Source of the DNA: Nitrospinota bacterium
GTDB lineage: Bacteria > Nitrospinota > Nitrospinia > Nitrospinales > VA-1
NCBI GenBank assembly: GCA_009873635.1
Contig: WAHY01000007.1
Location: 1-35,194, forward strand
Direction: 5' to 3'
Length of the DNA stretch: 35,194 bases
Of the stretch, positions 28,903 through 35,194 are shown piece after piece. The position numbers and the translations under genes are program-made. The first letter of the stretch is position 1. Every line of letters starts with the position of its first letter. A model generated the notes under the pieces. It saw nothing but the letters and a program-made list of their open reading frames with translations. It made no database searches and was not told the DNA's origin.

Positions 28903-29496
28903 TTGATACGAACATCAATCACGCCTAATCAGGTTACCACATTGTCTTTATTGTTTGGCCTGGCCTCTGGGGCGGCATTATTGGCAGGGACCTATAGCTC
29001 TACCCTTGCAGGCGCATTTTTTTTGTTTATCTGTTATGTGCTCGATAATTGTGACGGAGAAGTTGCCCGCTTAAAAAATATGTGCAGCCATTTTGGTATG
29101 AGATACGACACGTTTGTTGATTGGGCTGTCCACACTGTTTTCTTTATTTGTCTGGGTTGGGGGGCGACAATTGCGATGGGGCAGGAATGGTGGCTGTGGA
29201 CGGGTATTGTGGCGGGTCTGGGGGGCACCATTAATTATGGTTTAGAACTTTATCAGAACAAAACCCAGCCCCATGCCAGCCAGCTGCCCGAAGAAGAAAC
29301 AATGAGAAAAGATGATGATACGGATATGGATAGGTTTGTATTGAATGCACGTGTAGTACGCAGTGACTTTTGTTTCATCGTATTGCTTTTAAGTGTGGGA
29401 GGAGTGCTTTGGTTTCTTCTTCCCCCTGCTGCTGTTGGTGCCCAGGCCTATTGGTGCCTGCAATTCACCCGTAGTGCCCGGCGCTGGCACGTTTAA
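28903..29496 (+). CDS. CDP-alcohol phosphatidyltransferase (5' end uncertain, possibly truncated)
   Basis: An integral membrane transferase of 197 residues from TTG 28903. The catalytic motif is complete: DNCDGEVAR, then G and two further Asp at the standard spacing (HFGMRYDTFVD). Hydrophobic helices surround it. The start TTG has no ribosome site, and the frame is open and family-like for 44 codons upstream (back to 28771) with no normal start. The paralogue at 31298-32548 has a matching leading helix plus an N-terminal domain. So this gene may have lost its first part, or may use an unusual start. It lies 5 bases before the flippase-like gene and near the cytidylyltransferase, suggesting that it transfers a phosphoinositol group. 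Confidence 0.8.
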   Translation: MIRTSITPNQVTTLSLLFGLASGAALLAGTYSSTLAGAFFLFICYVLDNCDGEVARLKNMCSHFGMRYDTFVDWAVHTVFFICLGWGATIAMGQEWWLWTGIVAGLGGTINYGLELYQNKTQPHASQLPEEETMRKDDDTDMDRFVLNARVVRSDFCFIVLLLSVGGVLWFLLPPAAVGAQAYWCLQFTRSARRWHV

Positions 29497-29501
29497 CAGC
29501 C

Positions 29502-30509
29502 ATGAAACCATTAAAGATTTTATATTTGTTGGTAGGTATAGGTCTGCTTGGATTTGTGTTAAGCCATACAGATCTTCCATTGGTTTGGTCTCAGTTAAAT
29601 AAAATTGGGTGGGGCATTCTTGTTGTGTTGGCCGTTTATAAAGCTGCATTTATTGTGGATACATTTGCATGGCAGATTACTTTACCCAGTACACAGTGCA
29701 CTAAAAAATGGTTGTATGATCTCTGGAAAGTACGCATGGTAGGCGCGGCTTTCGGAAAAATGTTGCCTTTCAGTGCTTTTGGGGGAGCGCCAATAAAAGG
29801 TTTTGTTCTTAAACATTATTATGGAATTCAGTACAGGGAAGGCGCTGCATCACTGATTCTTGCGGAATCCACTCATTTGATCTCCATGGTTTTATTTATG
29901 GCCACGGGTGTTTTCCTTATTCTGCTTGATTCTAACCTGCCGGGAAGTTTCCATTATTTCGCAGTCTTTGGTTTAAGTGCGATCGCTATAGGTATTTTTT
30001 TGTTCTTCCTTGTCCAACGTTTCAAGATCACTTCGTTAACGGGAACTTGGCTTAGCCAGAAAAAGTTTGGGCAATGGTTGGATAAGTTCATCCATCATAT
30101 TCACGATATGGATGAGAGGCTGGTTCAGTTTTATACCCGTGATAGAAGTCGTTTTCTTTTGGCAGCATTTTTTAATCTCATCAATTGGTATTTAGGTGCC
30201 TTGGAAATATTTGTCATTTTTTATTTTTTGGGTAACCCTATTACAATTGTTGAGGCAATAATCCTGGAAACACTTGTTGAATTGGTCAGGGCGGGGACAT
30301 TTTTTATACCTGCTACATTGGGCAGTCAGGAAGCGGCTTTTATGGTTGCAACGGAAGCAATAGCGGGGCAGACAGCGTTAGGTGTTGCCGCTGCATTGAT
30401 GAGGCGTGTCCGGGAATTTGTCTGGCTGGGATGGGGATTCATTTTAGGTCTTGAATATTCACAAAAACCCTTTGATCTTGCAGAAGCTGCTCAGAAAGAC
30501 TTGGATTGA
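29502..30509 (+). CDS. Lysylphosphatidylglycerol-synthase-TM-like (UPF0104) flippase-type membrane protein
   Basis: A 335-residue polytopic protein with about seven or eight hydrophobic segments. It fits the family of MprF-like transmembrane domains and HpnL: GAAFGKMLPFSAFGGAPIKGFVLKHYYG and ETLVELVRAGTFFIPATLGSQEAAF are the recognisable conserved stretches. Members are implicated in lipid or polyprenol-linked substrate translocation. Here it sits between a CDP-alcohol phosphatidyltransferase and an inositol-1-phosphate cytidylyltransferase-like gene, so export of an inositol-containing lipid or product is a fair guess. No ribosome site is obvious; it may rely on coupling with the gene 5 bases upstream. 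Confidence 0.85.
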   Translation: MKPLKILYLLVGIGLLGFVLSHTDLPLVWSQLNKIGWGILVVLAVYKAAFIVDTFAWQITLPSTQCTKKWLYDLWKVRMVGAAFGKMLPFSAFGGAPIKGFVLKHYYGIQYREGAASLILAESTHLISMVLFMATGVFLILLDSNLPGSFHYFAVFGLSAIAIGIFLFFLVQRFKITSLTGTWLSQKKFGQWLDKFIHHIHDMDERLVQFYTRDRSRFLLAAFFNLINWYLGALEIFVIFYFLGNPITIVEAIILETLVELVRAGTFFIPATLGSQEAAFMVATEAIAGQTALGVAAALMRRVREFVWLGWGFILGLEYSQKPFDLAEAAQKDLD

Positions 30510-30573
30510 AGATTTTGTATTTTTGATTATGATGGGGAATTATTAATTTGCTTGAACTAAGGTAATTGATTAC

Positions 30574-31290
30574 ATGAAATGTTTATTAATTATAGCTGGA
30601 AAGGGTAGCCGGTTAAAATCTCTTTCGGACAGTAAACCACTGACTTCTATATTGGATGTTCCTCTTGTTGAACGGGTCATTCGTGCAGCTTTAGAATCCG
30701 GGGTGGATGGGTTTTATGCAGTGGTGGGGTATCGTGGTGAGCAGGTCCGATCATTTCTTGAAGGATTGGCTGGTAAAATTAATGTTCCTATAACTGTGAT
30801 AGATAATCCTGAATGGGAGAAGGCCAATGGGCTGTCTGTACTCAAAGCGAAAGAGTTTTTGAGTGAACCTTTTTTACTGTTAATGGGAGATCATCTTTTT
30901 GACCCTGATATTACCCGAAAAATGATTGATCATTCCCTGGCTGGAGATGAGGTTGTCCTTGCTGTTGATCATAATTTAAAAAACCCTATGGTTGATTTGG
31001 ATGATGTGACTCGAGTTATGGAGGATAAAGGGTTGATTCAGAATATTGGGAAGGGAATAGATGGGTATAACTGTTTTGATACTGGAATATTCCTTTGTAC
31101 GCCAGCTTTATTTTCTGCGCTTGAGGAATCTGTGCGAGTCTCCGGTGATGACTCATTATCAGGGGGTATCCGCGTTTTGGCGAAGGATGAAAAGGTTCGT
31201 GTTATGTCGATTGATGGTCTGTTCTGGATAGATATTGATGATCCCGAGCGGTACAGGAAGGCAGAAAACTATTTGAACAATAATTCCTGA
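30574..31290 (+). CDS. Inositol-1-phosphate cytidylyltransferase-like nucleotidyltransferase
   Basis: A 238-residue sugar-nucleotidyltransferase fold. The N-terminal nucleotide loop is AGKGSRLKSLSDSKPLTS, then NPEWEKANGLSVLKAKEF, the metal-binding LLLMGDHLFDPD, and DLDDVTRVMEDKGLIQNIGKG with DTGIFLCTP. These follow the archaeal and bacterial inositol-1-phosphate cytidylyltransferase (IPCT) pattern (MGDH, D-DxATKV, IGKGL, DTGxF) more than LicC or MobA. It would make CDP-inositol from CTP and inositol-1-phosphate. Neighbours supply inositol phosphate (synthase at 32843) and CDP-alcohol transferases. LicC-like choline or other alcohol specificity cannot be excluded. Confidence 0.85.
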   Translation: MKCLLIIAGKGSRLKSLSDSKPLTSILDVPLVERVIRAALESGVDGFYAVVGYRGEQVRSFLEGLAGKINVPITVIDNPEWEKANGLSVLKAKEFLSEPFLLLMGDHLFDPDITRKMIDHSLAGDEVVLAVDHNLKNPMVDLDDVTRVMEDKGLIQNIGKGIDGYNCFDTGIFLCTPALFSALEESVRVSGDDSLSGGIRVLAKDEKVRVMSIDGLFWIDIDDPERYRKAENYLNNNS

Positions 31291-31303
31291 AAATATTTCA
31301 GGA
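31285..31303. terminator. Hairpin spanning convergent stop codons
   Basis: TCCTGAAA (31285-31292), loop ATA, TTTCAGGA (31296-31303): a perfect 8-bp stem containing the TGA stops of both convergent genes (plus 31288-31290, minus 31300-31298). It could terminate both transcripts, though no T-run follows. Confidence 0.45.
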
Positions 31304-32548
31304 GCGCTCGGGACATTTAACCGAATATAGCTCCATGGAGCGAATATAAATCAGATAGGTGGCGAAAATTGTCGCGCCAAACGCGGCGATGGATATAAAT
31401 ATATGTACCAAATCGAAAACTGTTGTGAGCATAAGAAAATGGATGAAATCCCGGTTGGCAAGTTTGTCAGCTAATGAGGGCTGTGATTTTGAAGATGGTT
31501 TAAAATCGCTTGAACTTTTGTTGACAATAGATGATCCCAGAAGAAAAAATGAGGTAAGGCTGGCAAATGCGGCCAATATCCCTAAGTATATATACAATTG
31601 TTCGCCTGTTGCTTTGCTCATTCCCCACCCAATAGCCCCAAACACTAAGAAGTGAACAATGTTGTCGCAAAGAATGTCCAGCTTGCCACCTAATTCGGAC
31701 TCCATGAATTTAAGCCTGGCTATTTCTCCATCTACTCCATCCACCCAGGTCGAAAAGACCAGCAATATACCTCCGTACACATTCGCCTGGTAAGTTCCTT
31801 GAAAAAAGCAAAAGGCTGCTAATAATCCCATCACAAAACTCAATAGCGTAATTTGGTTGGGGCTGATAGGCGTGTTTAAAAAAAATCGGCTGAGTTTTCT
31901 GGACACCGGGCGAGACAAAAGTCTGGTTATTGTGCTGTCATGGTTTTGACCAGAACCTTTAAGCAGTTGTTCGTGTAAAATGTTAAAATCATTATGCTCC
32001 AAAATATGGTCTTTTACAGGGCCGGGTATGGATAAAAATGTTTGTTGGTCTTCTGTGAAATGCTCGTGTTCTGCTTTGGCATTTGTTTGAATTTTGTCGA
32101 CCAATGACTCTAGTTGCTCATGGTTGAGGTCCAAGCTTTCAGGGCTTTTTGAGTTTTTCGTCCCCGTTTTATCTAATACAGAATTTACTTCTTTTTTATC
32201 ATGAAGTGCTGACCCATTAAAAAGAAGAACCCTGCTTTTCAGGTTTTTTAATGTTTCTTTTAATTTTTCGGGATTAGAAACCCAATGAACATTAGAGGTA
32301 ATGCGAAAATCTTGCCCAACAAGAATCTCTAAAGATTTTAGGTCTTGCGTGTCCATATATACGATGATGTCATGCAGTCCGCATCGCTGAAGAGTCAGAA
32401 TGTTTCTTAAAAGAAAGGGGACTCCTGCTATGGTAGATCCATACCACTCTGTAGCTTTCCAGGGGTCTGGTGGGGACGGTAAGCGAAGAACTGCGCACTC
32501 CTTATGATATGGGGTCTTGGTTAATGAAGAGTTTGTGTGTTCGTTCAT
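31298..32548 (-). CDS. Fusion of degenerate nucleotidyltransferase domain and CDP-alcohol phosphatidyltransferase (DIPPS/IPCT-like)
   Basis: A 416-residue protein. Residues about 18-190 look like a nucleotidyltransferase fold without its GxGxR loop or the MGDH metal site (GVPFLLRNILTLQRCGLHDIIVYMD; SRVLLFNGSAL), so catalysis there is unlikely. Residues about 205-410 are a CDP-alcohol phosphatidyltransferase: PISPNQITLLSF, DGVDGEIAR, then GGKLDILCDN, with all catalytic Asp present and about six membrane helices. The layout equals the bifunctional IPCT-DIPPS enzymes, in which CDP-inositol is condensed with inositol-1-phosphate; here the separate 30574 gene would supply the cytidylyltransferase. 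It faces the inositol-phosphate synthase gene across a divergent promoter region. Confidence 0.86.
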   Translation of the reverse strand: MNEHTNSSLTKTPYHKECAVLRLPSPPDPWKATEWYGSTIAGVPFLLRNILTLQRCGLHDIIVYMDTQDLKSLEILVGQDFRITSNVHWVSNPEKLKETLKNLKSRVLLFNGSALHDKKEVNSVLDKTGTKNSKSPESLDLNHEQLESLVDKIQTNAKAEHEHFTEDQQTFLSIPGPVKDHILEHNDFNILHEQLLKGSGQNHDSTITRLLSRPVSRKLSRFFLNTPISPNQITLLSFVMGLLAAFCFFQGTYQANVYGGILLVFSTWVDGVDGEIARLKFMESELGGKLDILCDNIVHFLVFGAIGWGMSKATGEQLYIYLGILAAFASLTSFFLLGSSIVNKSSSDFKPSSKSQPSLADKLANRDFIHFLMLTTVFDLVHIFISIAAFGATIFATYLIYIRSMELYSVKCPERS

Positions 32549-32842
32549 GAGACAGTTGGCGGTTAAAACTTTTTTGAATTAATTATATGCGGTTAATTAT
32601 ATATGGTGATTATCTGATTTAGAAGAGTTTGCTTTAGGCCTTGTATTAAAAGGATATTCAGTTTTTTCTAATAATCCAATATTGGAAAATAAAACTATCC
32701 AATAAGAGTGTAGGATGTTATTCTCACGCAGAATTAGCAAATTTTCCACGATTGTACCTTACTTCTTGCTAGAACGGCTTTCCAATTGAACCTGTTTGCA
32801 ACTACTAGAGTGCGGTCTTAACAAATTTGGAGATAGACTTTA
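32549..32842. other. Divergent promoter region of the inositol genes
   Basis: A 294-base AT-rich gap between the fused transferase gene and the inositol-phosphate synthase. It has a direct repeat TTAATTATAT (32579-32588 and 32593-32602, 14-base phase) and a CCAATATTGG palindrome near 32676. These are candidate binding sites but could be AT-rich chance. Confidence 0.4.
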
Positions 32843-34195
32843 ATGAATGAGGCTGGTGATTCATATAGCGGCATGGCGAAAGAAATCGCGCCTTCAAAAG
32901 GCAAGCTGGGTGTTTTGTTGCCAGGAATGGGAGCGGTTAGTTCGACTCTTATAGCGGGAGTCTTCCTGGTAAATTCGGGGCATGCTAAACCCATTGGATC
33001 GGTAACACAAATGTCGCGAATACGTTTGGGTAAAAGGGATAACCCACGGTATCCCTTGATTAAGGATTTTGTCCCTCTTGCAGACCTGGAAGATATTGAA
33101 TTTGGGGGATGGGATATTTATGACGATAACTGCTATCAGGCGGCCCTGGCTTGTGGGGTGATTGAAAAGCAGGAACTTGATCTGGTAAAGGAACAGCTTG
33201 AGGCTATCAAACCTTGGGCTGCTGTGTTTGACCCCACTTTTGTGAAAAACCTGACCGGAACAAATATAAAGAGTGCTCCTAATAAAATGGAGCTGGCCAA
33301 ACTTTTGATGCAGGATATTGAAACCTTTAAAAAGGAAAAAAGTTTGGAGCGACTGGTGATGTGCTGGTGTGGTTCGACAGAAGCTTATCAGGACTGTATG
33401 GATCATGAAGCGTTTCAAACTTTGGAATCGTTTGAGTCGGCATTGGAAAATGATCTTGATTTGATTCCGCCTTCAATGATTTATGCTTATGCGGCTCTGA
33501 AAATGGGAGTTCCCTTTGCCAACGGTTCTCCAAACCTCACTGTAGATGTTCCGGCACTGATCGAATTATCGATCAAAAACAAAACGCCTATAGGAGGCAA
33601 AGATTTTAAAACAGGCCAAACTTTGATGAAGACAATAGTAGCTCCAGGTCTCAAATCCAGGATGCTGGGGCTTGATGGATGGTTTTCCAGTAACATACTA
33701 GGTAACCGCGACGGGGAAGTGCTCGATGACCCTGATTCATTCAGGTCTAAAGAGGTGAGTAAAGGATCGGTTCTGGAAAGTATCTTGCAGGATGATCTTT
33801 ATCCGGACCTTTATGGTGATTACTACCATAAAATTCGTATTGAATACTATCCGCCAAGAGGGGATGCCAAGGAAGGATGGGATAATATAGATATCCAGGG
33901 TTGGTTGGGGCAAAAAATGCAATTGAAAATTAATTTTCTCTGTCGCGATTCAATTTTAGCTGCCCCTGTAGTTCTCGATCTGGTCTTGTTTCTGGATCTG
34001 GCCCAAAGGGCTGGAATGAGAGGCGTCCAGGAATGGCTTTCGTTTTATTTTAAATCTCCTCAGTGCAGGCCGGACCTCAAACCGGTAAACTCGCTATTCG
34101 ACCAGGATGAGAAACTAAGAAATACTTTGCGAATCATCATGGGTGAGAAGGTGATTGACCACTCAGGTTTAGATTATTACGAAAACAAGGGTTGA
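32843..34195 (+). CDS. ino1: myo-Inositol-1-phosphate synthase (inositol-3-phosphate synthase)
   Basis: A 450-residue NAD-dependent enzyme that cyclises glucose-6-phosphate to inositol phosphate. The N-terminal dinucleotide-binding region is GVLLPGMGAVSSTLIAGV. The diagnostic stretches are GGKDFKTGQTLMKTIVAP, LKSRMLGLDGWFSSNILGNRDGEVLDD and SKEVSKGSVLESIL, with the active-site lysines in GGKDFKTG and near DYYHKIRIEYYPPRGD. The length lies between the short (about 360) and eukaryotic (about 510) classes and fits the Bacteroidota/Planctomycetota-type bacterial group. GGAG lies about 10 bases before the ATG. It supplies the substrate for the cytidylyltransferase and transferases encoded nearby. 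Confidence 0.95.
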   Translation: MNEAGDSYSGMAKEIAPSKGKLGVLLPGMGAVSSTLIAGVFLVNSGHAKPIGSVTQMSRIRLGKRDNPRYPLIKDFVPLADLEDIEFGGWDIYDDNCYQAALACGVIEKQELDLVKEQLEAIKPWAAVFDPTFVKNLTGTNIKSAPNKMELAKLLMQDIETFKKEKSLERLVMCWCGSTEAYQDCMDHEAFQTLESFESALENDLDLIPPSMIYAYAALKMGVPFANGSPNLTVDVPALIELSIKNKTPIGGKDFKTGQTLMKTIVAPGLKSRMLGLDGWFSSNILGNRDGEVLDDPDSFRSKEVSKGSVLESILQDDLYPDLYGDYYHKIRIEYYPPRGDAKEGWDNIDIQGWLGQKMQLKINFLCRDSILAAPVVLDLVLFLDLAQRAGMRGVQEWLSFYFKSPQCRPDLKPVNSLFDQDEKLRNTLRIIMGEKVIDHSGLDYYENKG

Positions 34196-34504
34196 GCTGG
34201 TTTAATTGGCTTGTCAATATTGGCTCTTCTTGCTTTCAGCTTGGCAAATTATCTCAAAGCCAGGGAACTAACAATCCTTCAATAGCTTAGTGGCTTTTAT
34301 CAAAAAAACTGCTATTTGGTAGTAATCGTGCTTTCTCTGTCCTTGTTTTTTCGGAGTATTCTTAATTTTTCCTTCAAAAAACTCTTATCAAATTTAATTT
34401 TTATCAAAGATATTTTGTGTTTATTTCCACTAAGTCTAAAGAGTAAATCTGAAGGGCATTAGGGGGAATTTTATTTAGCCATTGAAAAAATTAGCTTTAT
34501 TTTC

Positions 34505-34533
34505 TTGACATCGTTTGCGGTTAGCCTTATGGT
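34505..34533 (+). promoter_or_regulatory. Sigma-70-type promoter of the 63-residue gene
   Basis: TTGACA (34505-34510), 17-base spacer, TATGGT (34528-34533). A perfect -35 at ideal spacing with a 4-of-6 -10 match. The start of transcription is expected near 34540, giving a leader of about 100 bases. Confidence 0.6.
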
Positions 34534-34555
34534 GAATGTTAGTTGCAGGGTAAAT

Positions 34556-34602
34556 CTTATTTTTTGGTTTATCATTTAGGAGAAAAGCTGCCAAAAAATA
34601 AG
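34556..34602 (+). promoter_or_regulatory. 12-bp inverted repeat in the leader
   Basis: CTTATTTTTTGG (34556-34567) and CCAAAAAATAAG (34591-34602) pair perfectly over 12 bases with a 23-base loop that contains an AGGAGA sequence. The real ribosome site (GGAGG, 34622-34626) lies outside it. The hairpin could protect or regulate the mRNA, or be a protein binding site. Confidence 0.55.
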
Positions 34603-34637
34603 GCATCAATGACTTTTTTTTGGAGGCAGGGCGCGTT

Positions 34638-34829
34638 ATGTTCTACGAAGTCAGGATTTTCGACGCCAAAGGAGAACTGAAAAAAGTTTTATCCCCTAAA
34701 AAGTTAAGCAACCGATTTTGGAAAAACGGTGACCAGAATTTAATCGACTTTGGTGATAAGGACAATTCATCCTCAGATTGGGACAGCAAAAAGATTGTCA
34801 AGGATGAATATCAACTTGAAGATCGTTGA
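34638..34829 (+). CDS. Small hypothetical protein of 63 residues
   Basis: Starts at ATG 34638 with GGAGG 11 bases upstream; a TTG at 34620 would overlap that site. The product is soluble, charged and acidic at the C-terminus: MFYEVRIFDAKGELKKVLS, then KKLSNRFWKNGDQNLIDFGD. The first part looks like a short beta-strand pair followed by a helix. I do not recognise the family. It has its own promoter, structured leader and strong terminator, so it is likely a well-expressed single-gene unit. Confidence 0.75.
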   Translation: MFYEVRIFDAKGELKKVLSPKKLSNRFWKNGDQNLIDFGDKDNSSSDWDSKKIVKDEYQLEDR

Positions 34830-34863
34830 TTAAAAATGTTTTAGAAGATTAATAAAAAGATTT

Positions 34864-34896
34864 ATGGCATGGAGCTTATGCTCTATGCCATTTTTT
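34864..34896 (+). terminator. Rho-independent terminator
   Basis: A 12-bp stem (ATGGCATGGAGC with GCTCTATGCCAT, one G-U pair) with a TTAT loop (34864-34891) is followed by six Ts (34891-34896). It lies 34 bases after the stop of the small gene. The upstream A-rich tract (AATAAAAAGA) also makes it a potential bidirectional signal. Confidence 0.9.
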
Positions 34897-34995: not shown

Positions 34996-35194
34996 ATGTA
35001 TATTACGTCTGCAGACCAGTTGAATGAATTTTGCAAAAATATTGGGTCTGCTGAAGTCGTGGCAGTAGACACTGAATTTGTGCGGGAAAGAACCTATTTC
35101 CACCGTGTCGGGCTGATTCAAGTGGGCGCGGGAAAACATTTCGCGGCCATTGATCCAATAATGCTTTCTGATTTATCGCCATTATTGGATTTGC
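34996..35194 (+). CDS. rnd: Ribonuclease D-like 3'-5' exonuclease, N-terminal part (3' end outside window)
   Basis: An ATG at 34996 opens a frame that runs to the window edge (66 codons). The translation has the DEDD exonuclease motif I as VVAVDTEFVRERTYFHRVGL, then IQVGAG and FAAIDPI, the conventional N-terminus of RNase D, which trims tRNA 3' ends. TAAGAG upstream is a weak ribosome site. The HRDC domain and motifs II and III lie outside the window. Confidence 0.88.
   Translation, partial: MYITSADQLNEFCKNIGSAEVVAVDTEFVRERTYFHRVGLIQVGAGKHFAAIDPIMLSDLSPLLDL

Follow-up and report, generated by a model that had tools for sequence, protein, structure and literature searches.

A compact single-gene unit encoding a small protein of the Nitrospinales, with a conserved promoter box and a leader hairpin

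In structured 5′ leaders (viz. ribosomal protein leaders, riboswitches, and RNA thermometers) a folded RNA controls the downstream gene, and in paired operators of the GalR or LacI type repression is brought about by looping. The locus described here has features of both. Like the structured leaders, it contains a covarying hairpin just 5′ of a Shine-Dalgarno sequence and a predicted alternative fold that could hide this sequence; however, its leader has no Rfam match near threshold and its alternative fold is without covariation. Like the paired operators, it has two copies of one short element, the first before the promoter and the second just past the start, at a distance of about ten helical turns from each other, but the copies are direct rather than palindromic and their spacing of 107–108 bp is found in two genera only. 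The encoded protein resembles the members of other taxon-restricted small-protein families, which are likewise short, present as several paralogues per genome and confined to one order, and differs from them in the link of one member to a promoter box that is single-copy and conserved order-wide. No description of the small-protein family, the box or the leader was found in the literature (searched by titles) or in the family libraries searched. Within the scope of these searches, what is new is the combination, together with a box that is single-copy and order-wide; the individual pieces are of known kinds.

The stretch of DNA that was analysed (the window, 35,194 nucleotides) is one contig of a 2.6-Mb genome from the order Nitrospinales of the phylum Nitrospinota, whose own copy of the locus is labelled L001 and which is itself labelled G000. 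An earlier note on this DNA had described a promoter, a 12-bp inverted repeat with AGGAGA in its loop, a gene of 63 codons and a terminator, and each of these features was found where that note had placed it (Table 1); its view that they form a self-contained single-gene unit is likewise supported. The terminator stem consists of 12 pairs, 11 of them Watson-Crick, closed by a 4-nt loop. Taken alone, neither the consensus promoter matches (2 found, 2.9 expected) nor the terminator matches (1 found, 1.1 expected) exceed chance, and the promoter and terminator rise above it because they are conserved in relatives. Dinucleotide shuffling of the 106-nt leader gave a perfect stem of at least 12 pairs with a loop of at most 50 nt once in 1000 trials, and shuffling of the 800-nt intergenic region gave one in 3 of 200.

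Table 1. Positions in the window of the features of the small-gene unit and its surroundings
Feature	Position	Strand	Remarks
Upstream (U) GTAAAYC element AGAGTAAATCT	34440-34450	+	direct repeat; 107 bp from D copy
Promoter box ATTGA-N4-ATT...CTTGACA	34481-34510	+	3′ end is the −35; pattern search and orthologue comparison
−35 TTGACA	34505-34510	+	17-nt spacer to −10; 10/12 matches for the whole promoter
−10 TATGGT	34528-34533	+	part of the TTGACA-17-TATGGT promoter
Downstream (D) GTAAAYC element	34547-34557	+	about +8 from the inferred transcription start
Leader stem, 5′ arm CTTATTTTTTGG	34556-34567	+	100% complementary to 3′ arm
AGGAGA within leader hairpin loop	34578-34583	+	sequence
Leader stem, 3′ arm CCAAAAAATAAG	34591-34602	+	23-nt loop between arms
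U8 tract and Shine-Dalgarno	34614-34626	+	alternative-fold pairing with 3′ arm possible (folding)
GGAGG Shine-Dalgarno	34622-34626	+	sequence
63-codon ORF	34638-34829	+	ATG 34638, stop 34827-34829; Nitrospinales-specific small-protein family
Intrinsic terminator	34864-34896	+	stem 34864-34891, then T run
rnd (RNase D, 3′-5′ exonuclease)	34996-35194	+	PF01612, E 2.5e-9; truncated by window end

Sequence comparison assigns the product of the ORF to a family of small proteins that is undescribed and peculiar to the order Nitrospinales. Profile searches found the family in 63 of 64 Nitrospinales genomes, the single miss being a genome that is 74% complete, and in none of the 13 Nitrospinota genomes from other orders, and a search with the 63-residue protein as single sequence was positive for 54 of 60 related genomes. 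The 63 positive genomes carry between 1 and 13 copies each, the window's own genome seven. In an alignment of 59 family proteins (A2, from which L073, L114 and identical proteins were left out, and of which alignment A4 holds 46 rows), residues M1, F2, E4, V5, and W28 are invariant and K15, L23, and S24 are nearly so. Substitutions at codon positions 1, 2, and 3 number 268, 208, and 537, respectively (28 pairs of 8 sequences), and this excess at third positions is what a real protein would show. That the protein belongs to no recognised family, as had been stated in the earlier note, is borne out by the homologue searches, in which Pfam, NCBIfam, PHROGs, and the PDB returned nothing beyond weak, chance-level matches (in the PDB, by sequence, one match at E 0.95). 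In a scan of named genomes from 84,980 species, 60 of 66 stretches were confirmed and none represented a homologue outside the phylum: the confirmed titles all read Nitrospinota, Nitrospinae, Nitrospinaceae or Nitrospina, bar three labelled Nitrospirae or Nitrospirota, and these correspond to genomes of the order (G024 for the SZUA-350 contigs, G053 for L088). A phage origin was rejected, none of 20 viral pattern stretches being confirmed, as was a plasmid origin, for which there was no match.

Structure prediction with AlphaFold places a beta-beta-alpha module at residues 1–30 (mean pLDDT in the module model 84 for residues 1–10 and 88 for residues 11–20) and leaves the tail beyond it unstructured; the product is probably a basic module of 30 residues followed by an acidic and probably disordered tail. 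The net charge of the tail is negative in all 48 rnd-linked proteins (mean −4.9), and in 33 other paralogues it averages +2.5, with a range from −5 to +9. AT-hook-like stretches (KGRP, KGRGRP or RGRKP) occur in the tails of a few paralogues only (L036, L041, L047), where their sequence suggests DNA binding. The weakest paralogue of the window's own genome (L121, G000:C13:45709; E 2.3e-4) is longer, with 105 aa, and its C-terminal end is a cysteine/histidine-rich, zinc-finger-like CVVCGRQFHPRHPQSKYCSHEC. The predicted module shares its strand-strand-helix order with the half motif of the CBS domain (which we take to be PF00571), and CBS proteins occupied the first five ranks when Foldseek was run with the module model. 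Foldseek gave no significant fold match (best E 0.79 for the module and 1.2 for the whole protein), Pfam found no CBS domain up to E 0.5 in the 59 family members, and in contrast to the CBS domain the family module spans about 30 residues and has one motif only.

Comparison of upstream sequences indicates that the most deeply conserved layer of the unit is its promoter DNA, which is conserved order-wide and is specific for this gene. The orthologue promoters of several families, when anchored at the −35, have in common ATTGA-N4-ATTGA-N-CTTATTTNCTTGAC, and TTGAC[AT] stands at the expected place in all 47 anchored promoters (L018, where the 5′ end of the gene is rearranged and no promoter is present, had been removed beforehand from the promoter set and from alignment A3). 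Duplicates with identical 100-base upstream sequence had also been removed before counting. A 29-bp consensus box overlapping the −35, allowing at most 3 mismatches, has a single site per genome in 32 of the 64 genomes of the order; all 32 sites lie 115–144 bp 5′ of the small-gene orthologue and on its strand, none lies elsewhere, and the reversed pattern has no match in any of the 64 genomes. At this threshold the consensus box is absent from the other 32 genomes, including the window's own. A looser pattern, also with at most 3 mismatches, has the window site as its only forward match in the latter genome; the reversed control matched there once on each strand. A regulon around the box was rejected, no second target being found. 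The box could also represent an unusually conserved UP element that functions without a dedicated regulator.

Around this promoter, in the genera g1 and g6, one GTAAAYC element is located 62–63 bp before the −35 and a second copy 45 bp after the start of the −35. Exact-motif pairs that are 107 or 108 bp apart are present in 13 of 21 leaders, and the best upstream match to the D copy falls at exactly this distance in 16 of 22 leaders from the two genera, although these counts are not independent because the sequences are related. The agreement between the U and D copies reaches 15 of 17 bases in L007. In L001, L002, and L011 another place scores at least as high as the match at 107/108 bp, which still ranks first or second among offsets 75–199 (in L001 second of 125 offsets), and L012, L019, and L053 are without a good U copy at this distance. 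D-like elements are also present in genera g2 and g8, and two copies at fixed spacing around the promoter were found in g1 and g6 only. A search of the window's own genome for a GTAAAYC regulon (13 bases, at most 2 mismatches) gave 102 matches, compared with 60 for the reversed control, and was uninformative.

The earlier note had staked its proposal of RNA-level control partly on the conservation of the leader stem, and the stem has indeed been kept, with covariation, in all 21 aligned leaders of g1 and g6 (at least 9 of 12 pairs in each, and 94.4% of cells paired) as well as in a held-out 22nd. Its covariation score is 0.271, compared with 0.185 for shuffles (reached by 0 of 500) and 0.029–0.178 for six slid controls, and two of five covariation measures are within the range of the shuffles (86/500 and 109/500). 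The fourth pair of the stem is A-U in 12 of the 21 leaders and G-C in 8, with L012 carrying a G-U intermediate; this clearest of the compensatory changes is probably a single event inherited by the 8 sequences. The upper stem changes, by eye, from AGUG/CACU to AGGC/GCCU in g6, where the pairing of L016 is shifted by one base. A covariance model of the leader has strong matches in 18 of 56 genomes, one in each and all at E 2.0e-14 or better, which belong to either g1 (14 of 16 genomes) or g6 (4 of 4); one of the 18 is the 22nd leader (G011), unused in model building, at E 1.2e-27, and elsewhere the model gave three weak matches (E 0.003–0.02). One g1 genome (L018 and L153; G012:C16) has an orthologue that has lost its start, promoter and leader and has other residues at its N-terminus, which suggests rearrangement or decay.

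A decoy Shine-Dalgarno sequence in the loop of the leader hairpin, which had also been suggested, does not hold for the group, as AGGAGA is present in 2 of 21 loops (L001 and L002) and the loops vary in length and sequence. The CsrA/RsmA motif is a GGA in a hairpin loop, and a leader of this type was rejected, since GGA-containing loops are not conserved. A leader peptide was also rejected, because 1-nt insertions disrupt the reading frame that crosses the conserved 5′ block (L003, L010, L011) and a TTG start is not kept. The folding energy of the leader is ordinary (z −0.50 for L001, and −2.11 to +0.30 among the 12 of 21 leaders that were folded), and no match at gathering score was obtained from Rfam, where the best candidate was SR1 (17.6 bits, with 45 needed).

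In the neighbourhood of the unit, rnd is the constant gene on the downstream side, and an inositol-phosphate synthase gene is present upstream in 5 of 30 loci, the flanks of the 30 being short. In the window, positions 28903-34195 contain a CDP-alcohol phosphatidyltransferase gene (31298-32548), a candidate second gene of this kind (28903-29496), and genes for a nucleotidyltransferase, an LPG-synthase-like membrane protein, and an inositol-phosphate synthase; this region is likely a cluster for inositol lipids or inositol phosphodiesters. No tRNA or tmRNA was found in 10 loci. L023 has, about 60 bp past the stop of the small gene and before rnd, another ATTGATTAAATTGATCTATTT that is similar to the promoter box.

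One type of paralogue (L031, which is G000:C10, and L034–L036, L038, L044, L045, L048, L050, L100, and L101) has a conserved element in its 3′ UTR, CCTAATCCTCCACCAA...AGTTGG, with a terminator-like hairpin behind it; in part of this set a long conserved leader precedes the gene. Exact copies of the element number 36, spread over 33 of the 64 genomes, its reversed pattern has none, and Rfam gave no match near threshold for 10 loci that carry it. C-rich small RNAs are known to pair with Shine-Dalgarno sequences, and by analogy the CCUCC of this element could do the same.

The sequence of the unit admits several other readings. It might be an attenuator leader of the downstream rnd, which lies on the same strand in all 30 loci examined, and a strict scan of 48 loci places a terminator between the two genes in 22; of the 22 loci that come from g1 and g6 it finds one in 17, and the other five have imperfect terminators by eye. 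We consider this very unlikely, as the same scan leaves 26 of the 48 loci without such a terminator and several loci have, by eye, −10-like sequences directly before rnd. The strong promoter, the hairpin, the terminator, and the compact size would also suit an abundant, stable RNA as the actual product, with an incidental ORF; however, it is the protein that is conserved across the order and not the leader, and third codon positions change most, which makes this reading exceedingly improbable.

Two further readings concern the hairpin itself. The leader could be a bistable translational switch, in which a 2:3 hairpin frees the Shine-Dalgarno sequence and an alternative fold (1:2, together with pairing of the 3′ arm to U8-GG) hides it, the state being picked by temperature, a ligand or a protein. 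With ViennaRNA the hiding fold is predicted to be dominant in 5 of 21 leaders (L001, L002, L005, L010, and L016), the 2:3 hairpin in 11, and the remaining 5 are mixed or show neither, and pairing of the 3′ arm to U8-GG is possible in 91% of cells. However, covariation of the 3:4 helix is not above that of shuffles (227/500), its pairing potential existing because an A-rich sequence faces a U-rich one, and the 1:2 helix scores below shuffles (490 of 500 are at least as high) and is missing from most of g6; a switch of this kind is accordingly rather unlikely. The hairpin might instead be a plain 5′ stabiliser or spacer, with all real control exerted at the promoter DNA, and this agrees with a box that is order-wide, a stem that is limited to two genera, and a loop that is variable in sequence and length. 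It too appears unlikely to be the whole account, in that the sequence of the stem and its position between D and the Shine-Dalgarno sequence have been preserved, with compensatory change, to a degree that a generic stabiliser would not appear to require.

The explanation that we favour, with a probability of roughly 45%, is that the locus is an independent protein-coding unit under dedicated, gene-specific control, in which a leader hairpin would favour translation or stability of the message for a small protein found only in the Nitrospinales. We take the control to be transcriptional and exerted at the promoter, with an RNA layer presumably added in g1 and g6. A dedicated regulator would bind the box together with U and D and set transcription by activation and/or looping repression. 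Since the box has a single target per genome, this regulator may possibly be the small protein itself or a paralogue, acting by feedback. The leader hairpin would fix the 5′ UTR by holding its A-rich 3′ arm off the U8-Shine-Dalgarno region, and the fixed 5′ UTR may favour translation or mRNA stability; against this, ViennaRNA prefers the alternative fold for the window's own leader (L001) extended by 30 coding bases. Because the tails of the paralogues are basic on average, the acidic-tailed protein may act as a partner or competitor of paralogues that bind nucleic acid. In a more far-reaching version, which we regard as quite unlikely, the protein itself or one of its near paralogues would found a regulator family confined to the Nitrospinales, bind its own single-copy promoter and loop U and D so as to close that promoter, the acidic rnd-linked member would antagonise the basic-tailed paralogues, and the hairpin would switch translation. 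If true, feedback would operate at two layers, in a loop restricted to a single bacterial order.

To our knowledge, gene regulation in the Nitrospinota is hardly known. The single-copy, order-wide box described here marks a candidate dedicated control circuit, and it may serve as bait for the regulator of that circuit. Two studies describe the Nitrospinota as major marine nitrite oxidisers (PMC3578206, PMC8026999). A function for this order-wide, multi-copy family would explain genes that are present in nearly every Nitrospinales genome.
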